Below, piece after piece: positions 13,449 to 54,092 of a DNA stretch of 64,000 nt. Below the pieces are notes generated by a model. It did no database searches. It was given only the letters and a program-made list of their open reading frames with translations, and had not been told where the DNA came from. Within the stretch, counting starts at the first letter, position 1; each line of letters starts with the position of its first letter. The stretch is from Spirochaetae bacterium HGW-Spirochaetae-5 (GTDB lineage: Bacteria; Spirochaetota; UBA4802; UBA5550): positions 1 through 64,000 of the forward strand of contig PGXT01000021.1 of the NCBI GenBank assembly GCA_002839285.1, written 5' to 3'. The position numbers were made by a program, and so were the translations under genes.

Positions 13449-13889
13449 ATGAGCTTAATTTTAAAATCAATTTTATTGGTAGATGATGATAGAGTAACTG
13501 CAAAACTTAAAGCTAAGAATTTGGAAAAGGACGGTTTTAATGTTGTCGCAGTTGATTCAGGTTTTAGTGCTTTCAATGCCATTGAAGAATTAAAATTTAA
13601 ATTTGATCTGGTCTTGATGGACATTGATTTAAACAGTGGATTAAGCGGAATAGAAGCTGCTGAAGTAATCCTTTCTAAATATAAAATACCGGTATTATTT
13701 CTTACCTCCAATTCCGATTCAGCCACAGCTAAAAAAGCAAGATCAGTTTCATTTTATGGATATATTCCCAAGGATGCCAGGCATTATGTCCTTGTTGAAG
13801 CAATTGAAATGGCGATTGAGCTTAATAAAATATTACTAATGCTTGGCTCGGGTTTTAATATTTCAAAATATAAAAAAGGATTATATTAA
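13449..13889 (+). CDS. CheY-like response regulator (stand-alone receiver)
   Basis: ILLVDDDRVTAKL, DLVLMDIDLNSGLSGIEAA, PVLFLTSN, GYIPKD. Confidence 0.9.
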   Translation: MSLILKSILLVDDDRVTAKLKAKNLEKDGFNVVAVDSGFSAFNAIEELKFKFDLVLMDIDLNSGLSGIEAAEVILSKYKIPVLFLTSNSDSATAKKARSVSFYGYIPKDARHYVLVEAIEMAIELNKILLMLGSGFNISKYKKGLY

Positions 13890-13953
13890 TTCTACGGCCT
13901 CTTCCATCCCGTAATTCAGTCGGATATTTCTTGTTTTATGAATTGGGGTATTA

Positions 13954-13974
13954 ACCCTAATAGAAAAATAGGGT
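13954..13974 (+). promoter_or_regulatory. ACCCTA-N9-TAGGGT dyad, copy 2
   Basis: ACCCTAATAGAAAAATAGGGT; ~100 nt upstream of the 14074 start codon. Confidence 0.65.
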
Positions 13975-14073
13975 ATTTTTTTTAAAATTAATGCTGTACA
14001 TAATATGTTCGTTTTAGTGTCTGGAATATGAATATCAATTCGGTTTTTGGCAGTTGCTATATGAAAGTAAAAG

Positions 14074-16986
14074 ATGGAGAATCAAATGGGAGTTCGCAGC
14101 CAGGATCACACCAGCATATTAAATAATCCGGATATATATCGCATGTTTATTGAGAACATTAATGATGTGGTTTTTCTTCTGGATCACTCCGGAATTATTA
14201 TTTATACCAATCATGTTCTCGAAAAAATTTCCGGTTATAAATCTGAGGAAGTTCTGGGCAAACATTTCAGTTTTTTCATATGTGAAGATGATTTACCGGG
14301 TCTTCTGGAGAGCTACAAAAATACCATGGCCAATGAACTGGAGCCTTATGAATTCTGCTGTAAAGCAAAAAACGGTGGAAAGCGGTACTGCAGAACTTCA
14401 AGTAAACCATTAATAATTGACAATAATAATGCCGGACTAATCGGGCTGCTAACCGATATAACAGAAAAAAAAATAATGGAAAAATCTCTTCATAAAAGTA
14501 ATCAAAGATACCGCCTGATCACGGATAATATGACTGAGATCATTCTTCTTATGGATCTTGATTTTAATATTGAGTATATAACGCCGTCAGTTGAAAAGGT
14601 CCGTGGCTTTACAGTTTCTGAAATTATTAATATGCCTCTTAAAAAACATTTTACAGAAGAATCATGGCGTAAGGTGTCTAAGGAAATTGCTCTGATATTT
14701 GATCAGCTGAATTCCGGTGATTTTACTTATTCTAATTATATCGATGTGGAGTATATAAATAAAGACGGGTCAATTGTATGGCGTGAAGTGGCTGTAAAAT
14801 TGCTTCTCGATAAAGACGGGAAAGCAACAGGCTTCCTATGTTCAAGCAGGGACGTCAGTGAAATTAAAAAGTCATACTCTTCTCTAAAAAAGTCCCAGGA
14901 ACTATACAGTCTGATCACGGATCATATTGATGAAGTCATCTGGATCATGGATAAAGATCTGAAAATTTCCTATGTCAGCCCTTCTGTTGAAAAGATTCGC
15001 GGTTTCACTCCCGATGAATTAATAAAAATGAATATATCCGGCCATTTTTCTCCGGAGTCCTATAAAATTGTTCAGAACATTATTAAAACAGATCTTATAC
15101 CGGACAGTTTTACCAGTGGTAAGAAAGAAATTAAGGGGCCTTATCATCTTCAAATGACATGCAAAAATGGAGATTTTAAATGGCATGAACTGATTTTAAC
15201 GGTGGTACGCGATATAGAGAATGGTGGTATAATTCTTCTCGGTGTTGCAAGGGAAATTACTGAAAGGAGAAAAATTGAACAGGCATTAAAGACTTCGGAG
15301 GAAAAATTTGCCAAGGCTTTCAGATATTCTCCGAATATTCAGGTCCTTACCCGTTTGAATGATAATGTAATTATTGAAGTTAGTGATACTATAGTTGAAC
15401 GTACCGGTTATCAGAAAGCGGATATAATCGGTAAAACTACAATTGACATCAATTGCTGGGTTAATGATGAAGATCGGGTTGATGTTTGGTGGCTGCTGAT
15501 TAATACCGGAGAAATAAAGAATAAAGAAATTAAAATGAGAGATAAAAACGGTGTTATTTATAATGTATTGTTTTCTGCAGAAACAATCTATATTGACCAG
15601 GAATTATATATAGTCTCCACCATCTTTAATTTAACAGAAGTCCGTAAACTTGAAAATATGATTATAGAATTAAGTGAAAAGGAAAAATATAGAATTGCAC
15701 ATGAGCTGGACCATGGTCTTGTAAATTTTTTAAACAGCATTTCATTATTAAGCAAAGAGTTAAAACGCAGGCTTGATGCCAGGTTTGCTGATGAATCCTA
15801 TCTGGCATATGATATATCAAACCTTATAGATAAAGCAGTTTCGCAGACGAAGGCTATTTCAAGGGGATTAAATCCACTTCTCCCCGGTGAAGACAGTTTT
15901 ATTCAATCTCTGGAATCTCTTAGCTCATCTATATGCAATGTCTCCGGAATAAATTGTGTATTTTCAAAAAGTAATTCAATACCTGAAATTAATAGTACAA
16001 TAGCCCGGAATTTACTCCTTATCGCAAAGGAGGCGATTAACGGTGCAGTCAGGTTGAGGAACCCTTCAAATATTATAATGATTGTTGACTATGAAAAGGG
16101 AAAATTTTCACTTATAATCCGTGATGATGGTACATCAGTTGAAGATATAAAAAATGATGTTAGTTATATAATTATTAAACATATAGCAGGTACAATTAAT
16201 GCTTCTTTGGAATTTGATTTTTCGATCAGATCAAATTCTCTTCTCTGCTCAATAACTTTAGAAGAGATGGCTAAGAGCCGGTTAATAAAAAACTGTAATG
16301 GGTTTACTTTAGAGTCTCCTTTGAAAAAGAGAATTGTAGTAGTTGATGAACAACCCCTGGTTCGCCGGGGTCTGATAAAAATATTAGAGGAAACCGGAAA
16401 TTTTGAGATATGTGGTGAAGCTGAGAATTATAGTAATATGATCAAGGCAGTCCGGAAATATAAACCGGATCTTCTAATCTGTGATTTTTATCTGAATGAT
16501 TTCCTGAATGTTGATTTATGCAAAGCAATATCTTCGGTTGATCCCGCTATTTCAGTACTTGTTATTACAAACCAGGATGAGCTTATTTATGGCGAGAGAT
16601 TAATCCGGTCCGGTGCAAAAGGTTATTTAATGAAAAGTGATACTGAAAAAACTATACTTGAAGCTGTTTATACTGTCTTAAACGGGCGGGTTCATGTAAG
16701 CAGATCTTTTTCAGTTAATATAGCCTCGCAGATGAGGTCTTTTGATCATTCACAAAAAGACATGATAACCAATACTCTTACTGAACGGGAGCTGGAAGTG
16801 TTTACAATGATTGGAAAAGCATTCTCTACTAAAGAGATTGCTTCCGAGTTATTTTTGAGCGTTAAAGCTGTTGAAGCAATTAGAAAAAAGATAAGGACTA
16901 AGCTGAAAATGGAGGATTCAAAGAATCTTGTTAAGCTTGCACGCAACTGGATAAGTAGCCATGTTCATGAATGTACTTTTCAGTAA
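14074..16986 (+). CDS. Multi-PAS sensor with degenerate HisKA_3/HATPase core fused to REC and LuxR/NarL-type HTH
   Basis: Four PAS-like units; EKYRIAHELDHGLVNFLNSISLLSKEL (HisKA_3-like); IAKEAINGAVR; REC KRIVVVDEQPLVRRGL...LLICDFYL...GYLMKSD; HTH LTERELEVFTMIGKAFSTKEIASELFLSVKAVEAIRKKIRTKL. Confidence 0.88.
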   Translation: MENQMGVRSQDHTSILNNPDIYRMFIENINDVVFLLDHSGIIIYTNHVLEKISGYKSEEVLGKHFSFFICEDDLPGLLESYKNTMANELEPYEFCCKAKNGGKRYCRTSSKPLIIDNNNAGLIGLLTDITEKKIMEKSLHKSNQRYRLITDNMTEIILLMDLDFNIEYITPSVEKVRGFTVSEIINMPLKKHFTEESWRKVSKEIALIFDQLNSGDFTYSNYIDVEYINKDGSIVWREVAVKLLLDKDGKATGFLCSSRDVSEIKKSYSSLKKSQELYSLITDHIDEVIWIMDKDLKISYVSPSVEKIRGFTPDELIKMNISGHFSPESYKIVQNIIKTDLIPDSFTSGKKEIKGPYHLQMTCKNGDFKWHELILTVVRDIENGGIILLGVAREITERRKIEQALKTSEEKFAKAFRYSPNIQVLTRLNDNVIIEVSDTIVERTGYQKADIIGKTTIDINCWVNDEDRVDVWWLLINTGEIKNKEIKMRDKNGVIYNVLFSAETIYIDQELYIVSTIFNLTEVRKLENMIIELSEKEKYRIAHELDHGLVNFLNSISLLSKELKRRLDARFADESYLAYDISNLIDKAVSQTKAISRGLNPLLPGEDSFIQSLESLSSSICNVSGINCVFSKSNSIPEINSTIARNLLLIAKEAINGAVRLRNPSNIIMIVDYEKGKFSLIIRDDGTSVEDIKNDVSYIIIKHIAGTINASLEFDFSIRSNSLLCSITLEEMAKSRLIKNCNGFTLESPLKKRIVVVDEQPLVRRGLIKILEETGNFEICGEAENYSNMIKAVRKYKPDLLICDFYLNDFLNVDLCKAISSVDPAISVLVITNQDELIYGERLIRSGAKGYLMKSDTEKTILEAVYTVLNGRVHVSRSFSVNIASQMRSFDHSQKDMITNTLTERELEVFTMIGKAFSTKEIASELFLSVKAVEAIRKKIRTKLKMEDSKNLVKLARNWISSHVHECTFQ

Positions 16987-17007: not shown

Positions 17008-18093
17008 ATGGAAAAAAATAAAGGCTTATCACCGGATAATAATGCTGTAAGAAAAATTGTTTTCCCTGTTAAACTCGGTATCGAACCAATGCAGAGACTT
17101 CTTATTGCAGATTTTGCAGATGATGTCGAGTATGAAGCTTTGGAACCACAATTGTTTAATGACAGTATTAATGGAAAGGGATTGCGGGTTTTAAGATATC
17201 GAAAGGACAAGAAAGTCGATGTCTATTGGCAGCCTGGCGTATTTGTAGATATAAATACATTTAATATCGGTGCCGGGATTGGAGATTTTGAAGAAGTTGA
17301 AATGAGTGCTTCATGTTTTGAAGTTGATGAATATGGTATAAATCTGCACCTGGCATTTAATGATAAACAAAACCGCACTGTTGAAATGAGAATTAAAGAA
17401 AATACTCCCAACAATAGGCGAATCCGATTCTTGGCACCAGTAGGTAATGACATAGAAAAACCGAAACAATTTTTTCTTGCATATATGCTCGATTTCGATT
17501 TTGTCAAAAAGCGAGGAACATCCTTCTCCGCAAGTATAGGAGATCGGCATTTAAAGCCGGCATCCTTCCCGCTTCTCAGAAATTTTAAAAAAGTTTTTTT
17601 TGCCAGATACTCACTTCGGCCATCCGTTGGAGTAATGAATCCACCCATGAGTATCCCTTTAATATTCGAAAGTCAGTTCCCTGCGATTAAATATGTTGAA
17701 GGTATGAATGTAAGTATTAATAAAAATGGAAATATTGAATCAATTAATAGAGAATATGAAAATATAAATTATGAAATTAAATTTTTTCCGGCATTCCCTA
17801 ATATGCTTGATTTGCAGGATAATCAGCCGGTAAAGGGAAAATGGGAATTTAAAATAGCTCAGGATTTAATTACATCGGGGACATTTTCCCTTAATAATTA
17901 TAATGGTGTTGTGTCTGCTGAAATTGATGTTACAGGTTTATGGAAACCCGTAGGTTTGCCTTTCAGCTTGAATCTGTTTACCAAGATTGCAGGTTTTTTC
18001 AGGAAATGGCCTGCTACATACAAATGGATTGCTACTGTTGATTTTAATGATTCTTTTAAGATGTCGTCCTCCTGGATTAGAAAAGAAAAATAG
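17008..18093 (+). CDS. Conserved hypothetical protein
   Basis: Long ORF 3' of the PAS/LuxR gene, same strand; no family recognised. Confidence 0.5.
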   Translation: MEKNKGLSPDNNAVRKIVFPVKLGIEPMQRLLIADFADDVEYEALEPQLFNDSINGKGLRVLRYRKDKKVDVYWQPGVFVDINTFNIGAGIGDFEEVEMSASCFEVDEYGINLHLAFNDKQNRTVEMRIKENTPNNRRIRFLAPVGNDIEKPKQFFLAYMLDFDFVKKRGTSFSASIGDRHLKPASFPLLRNFKKVFFARYSLRPSVGVMNPPMSIPLIFESQFPAIKYVEGMNVSINKNGNIESINREYENINYEIKFFPAFPNMLDLQDNQPVKGKWEFKIAQDLITSGTFSLNNYNGVVSAEIDVTGLWKPVGLPFSLNLFTKIAGFFRKWPATYKWIATVDFNDSFKMSSSWIRKEK

Positions 18094-50804: not shown

Positions 50805-53800
50805 TTAGTAAACATCAAACACCAGAAGGCATAGATCATCATTAAATTTATCACTTTTACAGAAAGATTTCAATTCATCAATGAGTTTATTAGAAAAGAT
50901 ATCGGGCTCGAGATCTGCGTTTCTACTGATAAAGTTTTTAAACCGGTCTTCTTCAAAGAGTACATTGTCGGGATCGGCACATTCTGTAATTCCGTCTGTA
51001 TAGAAAAATACCCTATCACCTTTAGTAAGCTGGATCTGTTCTTCGACTAACTGCAGATCGGTAAACCAGCCTAATGGTCTCCCTTTTGCATTAAGTTCAA
51101 AAAATTCACCTGTACTTTTTCTATAAACTATCGGAGATAAATGTCCGGCATTTGAATACCTTAATATATTCGTCTCTCTGTCTATAAGACAGAAAAAAGT
51201 GGTCATATAATTTGAGTTAACCGTGGAGTTGCATAACATATCGTTAAGCTGATACAGAACGTGGGTGCATGAATTTTTAATATAGATACTGTCAAAAGCC
51301 ATTTTTGCAATCATCGATATAAATGCGGAAACAAGTCCGTGTCCTGAAACATCGGCAATAAATATCTCTATAAAATTTCCGTTTGTTTTGAAATCATAAA
51401 AATCTCCTCCCACTTCATCCATGGGGATATAAGTCGGGTGAAATTTATAACCGGAAATGTCAGGGATGTTCTGCGGGAGAAGCCTGTGCTGAATAAGACG
51501 GGCGATTTTCAGGTCCTCTTCAATTTCATGGTTCCGTTTTTCTATTGCAATCTCATAACCGCGTGTTTTTAAAAGCATTTTTATGCGTGTTAAAAGTTCT
51601 TTTGAGTTAAAGGGTTTTGTCAGATAATCATCAGCGCCATATTCTATCCCCTCGATCTTACTGGAGATTTCAGATTTAGCTGTTAAAAGAATCACTGGTG
51701 TCCTCATGAGACGAGGATCCCCCTTGATTTTTTTTGTCATCTCATAACCGTTCATTACAGGCATCATAACGTCAGATACTATCAGGTCCGGTTTCAGTTC
51801 TTCAGCTGTATTAAATCCCTCTTCGCCATTACCAGCAATATGAACATTGTAATATTTTTTCAAAAGGAATTTAAGAAAGCTCTGCATATCGGGATTATCT
51901 TCTACTATTAGTATATTGATATTTGAATTATGATTTTCATGATCATTCAGTTCATCACTCTCTTTTATGCTTTTCAGTTCATTCATCTCCCTCATGCCTA
52001 AAAAGCGGTGATCGTTTACTGATTCTTCAAGTTTTATACTTTCAATAAATTTAACATTGTCATTGTTTTCCAGGTGTTCTTTTCCTTTCGGAATGGACAC
52101 CGTAAACACAGTACCGTGATTTGCCGGAGATGTATCGATGAATCTGCTTTTTACAGAAATTGTACCGTTGTGCAGTTCGATGAATTCTTTAACCAGTGCA
52201 AGACCAATACCTGTTCCTTCATATTTTCTGGTAGAACCTGCATCAACCTGAGAGAACCGGTCAAATACCGAGTCGAGTTTATCTTCCGGTATGCCTATAC
52301 CGGAATCTTCAAATTCAATGCAGCAGTTCTTTTCATCATTCCGCACTGTAACTGTTATAAATCCCCCTTTATCAGTAAACTTGAGCGCGTTTGAAAAAAG
52401 ATTCATAACAATTTTATCCAGCTTTTCAATGTCTATGAAAAGCATCGCTGAACTGCTGAGTGAAATAAAATTCATTGTTATTCCCTTCGATTCAGCAGCT
52501 GAATGTACTGAGGATATATAATTTCTGATAAATATAACAAGGTCTACTTCCTGAACTTTCAGGTCCATTCTGCCGGCTTCAATTTTTGAAAAATCCAGGA
52601 GGTTGTTAATCAGTTTTAAAAGCCTTATGGCATTTCTCTGAAGATTTTCAAAAAATCTTTTATCTAATTTATCATCATAATCACCCTGCAAAACTGATTC
52701 AACCGGTGAAAGTATAAGTGTAAGAGGTGTGCGTATTTCATGAGAGATGTTTGCAAAAAAACTCGATTTCAGTTTATCAAGTTCTTTCAGATTTTCATTT
52801 GCTCTATTAAGTTCACGTGTGCGTTCATTAACTTTCCTCTCCAGTTGTTCTGTGGCATTTTTCTGGATTTCAATAGTGCGGAGTTGAGCTTCTTCATTCT
52901 CTTTTTTCAGGATATTATCCCCCAGAGCAAATGATAGAAGTATAACTTCAGCGGCAGAACCGAACTGCACGCCGTATTGAGTCAGCAGAGTTGTAGGAAG
53001 ATAACCCGCATATTGCAGGCCAAGTAGCGAACAACCGATCAGGAAAAAAGTCCATGCTATCAGGAAAAATTTAGCAGTTCGGTTTCCTTTTAATGCGCTG
53101 AAAATACCCACAATAAAATAATCAAATGCAGCTACGATAGTTGTAACAGCTGAGAGTCTTGTCGCGATGGAATAATCTCCGAAAATAGAATAAATCATAC
53201 CTGCAAAACAGAATATCATCATGGATAAAACCATTTTATCAGAATTAGGAGCCAGTTTCCTTAAGTCTAAAAATGATCTTATAAACTGAGCTATTGTAAA
53301 TATACCTAGAAATACGGAAAACGGCATACTCTTCTTGAACAACGAGCTACTAGCAGGCCAAAGATACTGAAATGCAAGACCGTTTAAAGTGAGCGTGAAT
53401 AATATGAAAGACATTATATAAATTATATAATAGAGATAGTTTATATCACGCACTGAAAAGTAAACGAAAAGGTTATACAACATCATAACCAGCAGAATTC
53501 CATAATATATCCCTAAAATAATATATTCTACAATTGCCTTCTCTGTAAACACCTTAGGGCTCTGAAGTGTAATCGGGAACTTTAAAGAACTTGATGATCT
53601 GATTTTTATGAAGAAAATATTTTCACCACTTTTCAAACTTACATTAAAGATAAAATTTCTATGCTTAAGATATCTTTGGTTAAAATTATACTGGTAACCC
53701 GCGGTCTGTTTGCTGTACTGATTATTATTACCGGGGATATAAAGCTCTATATCGTCAAGATGAGGGTAACCTATTTCGAGATACATGTCTTTAGTTAGGG

Positions 53801-54092
53801 ATTGGGGATTATTTATATTAAATCTGATCCAGAATGCTGATTTTGAGTAGCCGTAATTTGGGACTTCAGTCTCGCTCTTTACAAAAGGGAATTCCATATT
53901 GGTATTTAGAAGATCATAAATCTGGAGAAGATTATTTTTGTCCTCAAGGATGTAGAGATTTCGGCCCAGTTTATAATCCTGGATATTCTGATCTAGGGTA
54001 ATAAACTGAGTCTGTGCATACAGGTTAAATGGTATCAGCACAGAAAAAAGTATAAAAAAAAGAGATTTTGAAAACAGTCTTTTATTATTCAT
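50805..54092 (-). CDS. 7TMR-DISM hybrid histidine kinase with REC and C-terminal SpoIIE/PP2C phosphatase domain
   Basis: N-terminal 7TMR-DISMED2-like domain and 7 TM; FFANISHEIRTPLTLIL; NALKFTDKGGFI, EDSGIGIPEDKL, GTGIGLALVKEF; REC ILIVEDNPDM...LIVSDVMMPVMNG...LTKPF; PP2C LIQHRLLPQNIPDISGYKF...EVGGDFYDF. Confidence 0.93.
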   Translation of the reverse strand: MNNKRLFSKSLFFILFSVLIPFNLYAQTQFITLDQNIQDYKLGRNLYILEDKNNLLQIYDLLNTNMEFPFVKSETEVPNYGYSKSAFWIRFNINNPQSLTKDMYLEIGYPHLDDIELYIPGNNNQYSKQTAGYQYNFNQRYLKHRNFIFNVSLKSGENIFFIKIRSSSSLKFPITLQSPKVFTEKAIVEYIILGIYYGILLVMMLYNLFVYFSVRDINYLYYIIYIMSFILFTLTLNGLAFQYLWPASSSLFKKSMPFSVFLGIFTIAQFIRSFLDLRKLAPNSDKMVLSMMIFCFAGMIYSIFGDYSIATRLSAVTTIVAAFDYFIVGIFSALKGNRTAKFFLIAWTFFLIGCSLLGLQYAGYLPTTLLTQYGVQFGSAAEVILLSFALGDNILKKENEEAQLRTIEIQKNATEQLERKVNERTRELNRANENLKELDKLKSSFFANISHEIRTPLTLILSPVESVLQGDYDDKLDKRFFENLQRNAIRLLKLINNLLDFSKIEAGRMDLKVQEVDLVIFIRNYISSVHSAAESKGITMNFISLSSSAMLFIDIEKLDKIVMNLFSNALKFTDKGGFITVTVRNDEKNCCIEFEDSGIGIPEDKLDSVFDRFSQVDAGSTRKYEGTGIGLALVKEFIELHNGTISVKSRFIDTSPANHGTVFTVSIPKGKEHLENNDNVKFIESIKLEESVNDHRFLGMREMNELKSIKESDELNDHENHNSNINILIVEDNPDMQSFLKFLLKKYYNVHIAGNGEEGFNTAEELKPDLIVSDVMMPVMNGYEMTKKIKGDPRLMRTPVILLTAKSEISSKIEGIEYGADDYLTKPFNSKELLTRIKMLLKTRGYEIAIEKRNHEIEEDLKIARLIQHRLLPQNIPDISGYKFHPTYIPMDEVGGDFYDFKTNGNFIEIFIADVSGHGLVSAFISMIAKMAFDSIYIKNSCTHVLYQLNDMLCNSTVNSNYMTTFFCLIDRETNILRYSNAGHLSPIVYRKSTGEFFELNAKGRPLGWFTDLQLVEEQIQLTKGDRVFFYTDGITECADPDNVLFEEDRFKNFISRNADLEPDIFSNKLIDELKSFCKSDKFNDDLCLLVFDVY

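Follow-up and report, generated by a model that had tools for sequence, protein, structure and literature searches.

Pseudo-histidine kinases such as DivL, ChrS-CAfs and NifL are already known, as are fusions of a kinase to its regulator. DivL of Caulobacter combines several PAS domains with a core in which the phosphoacceptor His is replaced (PMC4211667). A frameshift in the CA domain of ChrS in C. glutamicum abolishes catalysis, and the regulator receives its phosphate from a paralogous kinase instead (PMC9491836). NifL, a PAS sensor whose H and GHKL domains resemble those of kinases, acts by protein contact and without kinase activity (PMC8063818). In a sample of 16,025 HisKA_3 domains 56 (0.3%) were without the phosphoacceptor His, and in that work the switching of pseudo-receivers is called a mystery and pseudo-histidine kinases a newly considered field (PMC12632262).

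The locus analysed here lies in a window of 64,000 nucleotides (positions 1 to 64,000 of contig PGXT01000021.1) from the genome assembly of Spirochaetae bacterium HGW-Spirochaetae-5, which comprises 4.7 Mb in 309 contigs. One ORF, here called the window ORF and its product the window protein, encodes PAS domains, a kinase-like core, a receiver (REC) and a LuxR output in a single polypeptide. This architecture had been claimed in an earlier note on the same DNA, and the ORF, the domains and each motif named there were found in their places. The features, all on the forward strand, are:

13449-13889, forward: gene for a stand-alone receiver of 146 aa, next upstream of the window ORF and a possible partner (DD/D/T/K by inspection; Pfam)
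14074-16986, forward: window ORF, 970 aa, four PAS domains, pseudokinase DHp/CA core (predicted), REC and LuxR/GerE (ORF list and Pfam)
14131-15639, forward: four PAS domains, residues about 20-522 (Pfam PAS_9/PAS and TIGR00229 sensory_box, four stretches each; inner boundaries approximate)
15640-15876, forward: DHp-like two-helix region of HisKA_3 type, residues 523-601 (alignment; modelled helices)
15709-15711, forward: Asp546, replacing the phosphoacceptor His (present in 141/141 other cores)
15712-15714, forward: His547 at the +1 catalytic/phosphatase acid (Asp in 138 and Glu in 3 of the others)
15877-16278, forward: CA domain of GHKL type, residues 602-735, in which the ATP site is degenerate (alignment; model; Foldseek)
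16042-16044, forward: Gly657 in place of the N-box Asn (kept by 140/141 others)
16123-16137, forward: G1 box DDGTS, with Asp684 and Gly686 kept and the last Gly replaced by Ser688 (homologues DDGxG)
16156-16164, forward: G2 site D-V-S (Asp695, Ser697) instead of G-x-G, with the ATP lid shortened (alignment)
16183-16185, forward: Ile704 at an otherwise invariant Arg (Arg in 141/141 other cores)
16333-16668, forward: receiver with DE, Asp804, Thr832 and Lys854 all present (Pfam, alignment)
16774-16938, forward: LuxR/GerE helix-turn-helix, conserved Thr replaced by Ala932 (Pfam, alignment)
17008-18093, forward: 361-aa protein starting 21 bp past the stop of the window ORF, possibly co-transcribed (ORF list)

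The window protein resembles DivL in its several PAS domains and in the replaced phosphoacceptor His, but DivL has Tyr as the substitute, has no fused REC-LuxR and reads a separate regulator. The ChrS variant is a laboratory-evolved truncation which, unlike the window protein, keeps its His and has a separate regulator, while NifL works on a separate partner, NifA, and is not fused to REC-LuxR. The DesK-, VraS- and NarX-type HisKA_3 kinases share family and DHp-CA fold with the window core, but of their catalytic signature the core retains only the N-box Glu, the G1 Asp and the first G1 Gly. Within the same order there are REC-PAS-HisKA_3-REC-LuxR fusions (for example L073 and L080) that likewise join kinase and NarL-type regulator in one polypeptide, some of them without G1/G2 glycines; they differ from the window protein in the His, which none of them has lost, and in the N-terminal receiver carried by the five that were examined. 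A pseudokinase core in a one-polypeptide kinase-regulator with graded relatives in its class was undescribed in a limited search of the open-access literature.

The core is easily missed. Pfam finds the four PAS domains, Response_reg (E 3e-17) and GerE (E 7e-11) in the 970-residue protein and neither HisKA_3 nor HATPase_c up to E = 1. When the 213 residues between PAS4 and the receiver are searched alone, the sole Pfam match is HATPase_c_2 at E 0.13 and 12.7 bits, where the cut-off is 27.4. The homologues of this stretch in whole-genome searches are nevertheless DesK-type DHp-CA cores (E to ~1e-25, 25-35% identity), and a profile of the homologues finds DesK and VraS among the PDB entries (E 1e-23 to 2e-21; DesK 3.5e-23). 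A phmmer search of the core itself against the PDB gave no match, as expected given the divergence. By homology, from relatives at 20-35% identity and the structural match to DesK and VraS, the core belongs to the HisKA_3 family although it scores below the Pfam cut-off. Standard Pfam models are blind to it, and such proteins are therefore easily overlooked in censuses.

AlphaFold2, run with 58 aligned sequences, models a complete DHp hairpin and CA fold with a pLDDT of 86 (91 for an intact fused relative). Foldseek superimposes the modelled CA on the solved CA of VraS at 2.0 A over 124 columns (TM 0.80 by target) and on that of DesK at 2.4 A (TM 0.81), so the proposed check of the CA fold by structure prediction came out in favour of the fold. 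As the model leans on the aligned homologues, it indicates that the window sequence is compatible with a DHp-CA fold and no more.

A MAFFT alignment with homologues is in register at both the H box and the N box, and the main motif alignment holds 142 DesK/HisKA_3-type cores from 46 genomes of the class, the window protein and 141 others. Three substitutions that the earlier note had read from the sequence stand in this alignment: Asp at the phosphoacceptor position, where His is universal in the other cores, Gly for the almost invariant N-box Asn, and the replaced Gly-rich G2 loop, from which both glycines are absent. Its claim that DxGxG is lost goes too far, since only the last Gly has changed; Asp684 and Gly686 remain, and so does the N-box Glu. 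Invariant Leu and Glu columns fix the register beside the changed motifs. A slip that would rescue His547 or Asn656 as catalytic residues was considered and rejected, as flanking columns are fixed on both sides and the column of Asn656 is variable among homologues.

Altogether 13 of the 24 strongly conserved core columns (>=85%) are changed in the window protein and 11 kept, whereas the next lowest rows keep 19 and have 5 changed. The hydrophobic columns are kept at 53 of 58 positions, within the range of the other cores. The change from LHD to LDH (codons CTG GAC CAT GGT) alone requires at least two substitutions. Taken together, these counts make chance or sequencing error a poor explanation. 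In NarX-type sensors the +1 acid and the +5 Gln form a DxxxQ phosphatase motif. Both positions differ in the window core, with His at +1 and Asn at +5, and phosphatase activity would therefore be unexpected. Judged by these residues the core is very likely a pseudokinase, and the combination of alignment and model gives good support to a core that has lost catalysis and retained its fold. Weak nucleotide binding may be conceivable since Asp684 and Gly686 of G1 persist.

The output half is different in character. A pseudo-receiver has been defined as one without at least one of five receiver residues (PMC12632262). The window receiver keeps all five, with DE instead of DD as the first acidic pair, and by that definition its residues make it a true receiver. 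The LuxR helix has its framework kept and the domain is complete, with Ala where 65 of 65 other regulators carry Thr. REC and the GerE helix-turn-helix thus have the sequence characters of a NarL/LuxR-type response regulator, and the impression in the earlier note that both are intact holds apart from Ala932.

Many unfused HisKA_3 kinases of the class adjoin a gene for a NarL-type regulator. The fused proteins include one well-supported group of 16, with the organisation REC-PAS(n)-HK-REC-LuxR in the five members that were domain-scanned. Unlike these five, the window protein is without an N-terminal receiver, a receiver being instead encoded by the separate upstream gene. In the tree it falls outside the fused clade and occupies the longest branch. 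Placing it within the clade gives AU p values of 0.166 (core), 0.039 (REC-LuxR) and 0.077 (joined), so that membership is unsupported, though not firmly rejected. A derivation from a particular kinase family by way of PAS4 (42% to L031/L033) was also dropped, because L031 and L033 carry the matching PAS in a different position and its type is both repeated and widespread.

Among the 142 cores the second G2 Gly is lost in 6 of 17 fused and in 0 of 125 unfused proteins. In this class the loss is thus confined to kinases fused to their regulator, an observation that is new here. The proteins concerned are the window protein, G007 and the group G000-C140/G015/G016/G017. Fisher's test for fusion against loss gives 8e-6 when the criterion is set slightly wider (6/17 against 1/125), a value that overstates the association because the six cases represent three lineages and not six events. 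In nine unfused kinases the Asp position of G1 is altered and the second G2 Gly is kept; variation in G1 alone is therefore uninformative. Some unfused kinases (L091, L152, L165, L167, L170, L172 and L173) have Asn at the adenine-binding Asp of G1 and have lost the Gly, with His and the second G2 Gly kept.

A second fused REC-PAS-HK-REC-LuxR protein, with His and Asn kept and belonging to the fused group, is encoded on contig C140 of the same genome (L080:4716-7646). Its losses comprise both glycines of G2, the final Gly of G1 and an acid of the receiver. G015, G016 and G017 share this pattern, and the lost acid in the receivers of this group is the second, Mg-binding one (DS or DA). The opposite pattern of loss occurs in two other fused proteins, L070 and L093 (G029 and G027), where the kinase motifs are kept (LHE) and the receivers are degenerate (DG..A; EP..T). 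Whether homologues keep the H, N and G motifs, a point on which the reading of the core had been said to turn, thus has a divided answer: His is present in all, and five other fused homologues have lost ATP-lid glycines.

It is tempting to generalise, and we do so tentatively. Fusion of a HisKA_3 kinase to its own regulator may remove the need for phosphotransfer, as the loss of ATP-lid glycines in three lineages and of the receiver Mg-acid in two groups might suggest, leaving regulators that are under selection and signal by conformation, with the window protein as the case that would have gone furthest. One-polypeptide systems in the related genomes, which range from intact through partly to fully degenerate, offer a test of whether a fusion can drop phosphorylation and yet signal.

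For the window protein itself we favour, at about an even chance, a PAS sensor with a DesK/HisKA_3-type pseudokinase core fused to a NarL-type regulator, the core serving as a dimerisation and coupling element. Such a core would be unable to autophosphorylate, to transfer phosphate or to act as a DxxxQ phosphatase, and as a dimeric helical unit it would couple the state of the PAS domains to the tethered REC-LuxR. Rearrangement of the DHp helices driven by PAS would set the exposure, dimerisation or phosphate acceptance of REC-LuxR. Phosphate, if used, would come from another donor, either acetyl phosphate or one of the cell's other HisKA_3 kinases. Whether the core is mainly a conformational coupler is evenly balanced, and phosphorylation of the receiver in trans has nearly as good a chance of persisting. 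The allosteric scaffold proposed in the earlier note, in which PAS signals would reach the output directly, is plausible. With a fully equipped receiver, a donor kinase acting from outside is just as open an option. DivL, the ChrS pseudokinase, RetS and NifL provide a real example for every mode considered, and sequence alone cannot choose among these modes.

The dead core could also pair with an intact HisKA_3 paralogue, either steering that kinase or recruiting it to the tethered receiver. The genome has eight HisKA_3 proteins above the cut-off, most with intact motifs, the DHp helices are kept in the model, and there are precedents in the ChrS pseudokinase with HrrS (PMC9491836) and in RetS with GacS (PMC12189002). 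However, the sequence points to no particular partner, and the core is only ~20-35% identical to any paralogue; we regard this pairing as unlikely.

Loss of function, with the protein drifting as an early pseudogene, is distinctly improbable. It would agree with the very long branch over the whole protein, with the change of Thr to Ala in the helix-turn-helix and with the absence of an orthologue: whole-genome searches over family, order and phylum gave nothing above ~35% identity, and a scan of genome contigs with the C-terminal 448 residues found no close relatives. The branch is as long for REC-LuxR (2.72) as for the core (2.44), and the whole protein thus evolves fast, not the core alone, which tells against the reading favoured above. 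Against drift, the receiver quintet and the hydrophobic core are kept, the losses in the core lie at catalytic positions, and the frame is open over 970 codons. Neutral drift of the coding sequence, simulated until as large a share of the conserved core columns had changed as in the window protein, produced a mean of 29 stops per 970 codons and never fewer than 14, so the frame has been under selection for most of the divergence. This may leave room for a recent relaxation. In the degenerate CA of G016 and G017 dN is 0 and dS 0.42 over 95 codons, which in this one pair means purifying selection on the pseudo-CA of the C140 group; by analogy from this pair of another group, such selection may extend to the window protein. 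Recent decay, which had been raised as a possible cause of the changes, has the universal His of the homologues in its favour and, against it, the ATP-lid losses of five other fused homologues, the intact frame and the selection on a degenerate CA in one fused group.

A reversed sensor in the manner of DivL, with the dead core binding the upstream receiver and reading its phosphorylation state, is very improbable. The catalytic residues of the neighbouring receiver, a single-domain protein, are present, and DivL, itself a PAS protein with a pseudo-kinase, binds the phosphorylated regulator DivK~P (PMC4211667). But this receiver most resembles those found at the N-terminus of REC-PAS-kinase proteins, C267 of the same genome among them (44%), so it could be a split-off domain as well as a DivK-like partner; moreover 184 bp separate its gene from the window ORF, and in DivL the His is replaced by Tyr and a fused REC-LuxR is missing. 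No terminator is claimed for the interval 13889-14074, as 12 of 200 shuffles fold equally well. An artefact of sequencing, assembly or alignment, for which a single copy in a draft of many contigs might speak, is highly improbable in view of the many independent in-frame substitutions, the open frame and the invariant Leu and Glu columns beside the changed motifs.

The downstream protein (17008-18093) matches no Pfam or NCBIfam family and has one weak homologue (26%, G002, L120) among 46 genomes of the order. Linkage of this gene to kinases elsewhere was rejected, as the lone homologue is without such a core nearby. On contig C267 the frame of a NarL-type regulator (L115:6073-6462), neighbour to an intact REC-PAS-HisKA_3 kinase, is broken and its receiver is shortened; the kinase may be without a cognate regulator, or the assembly may be wrong. 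Elsewhere in the window (50805-54092, reverse strand), 7TMR-DISM, HisKA, HATPase_c, REC and SpoIIE phosphatase domains are joined in one polypeptide with normal Pfam scores.
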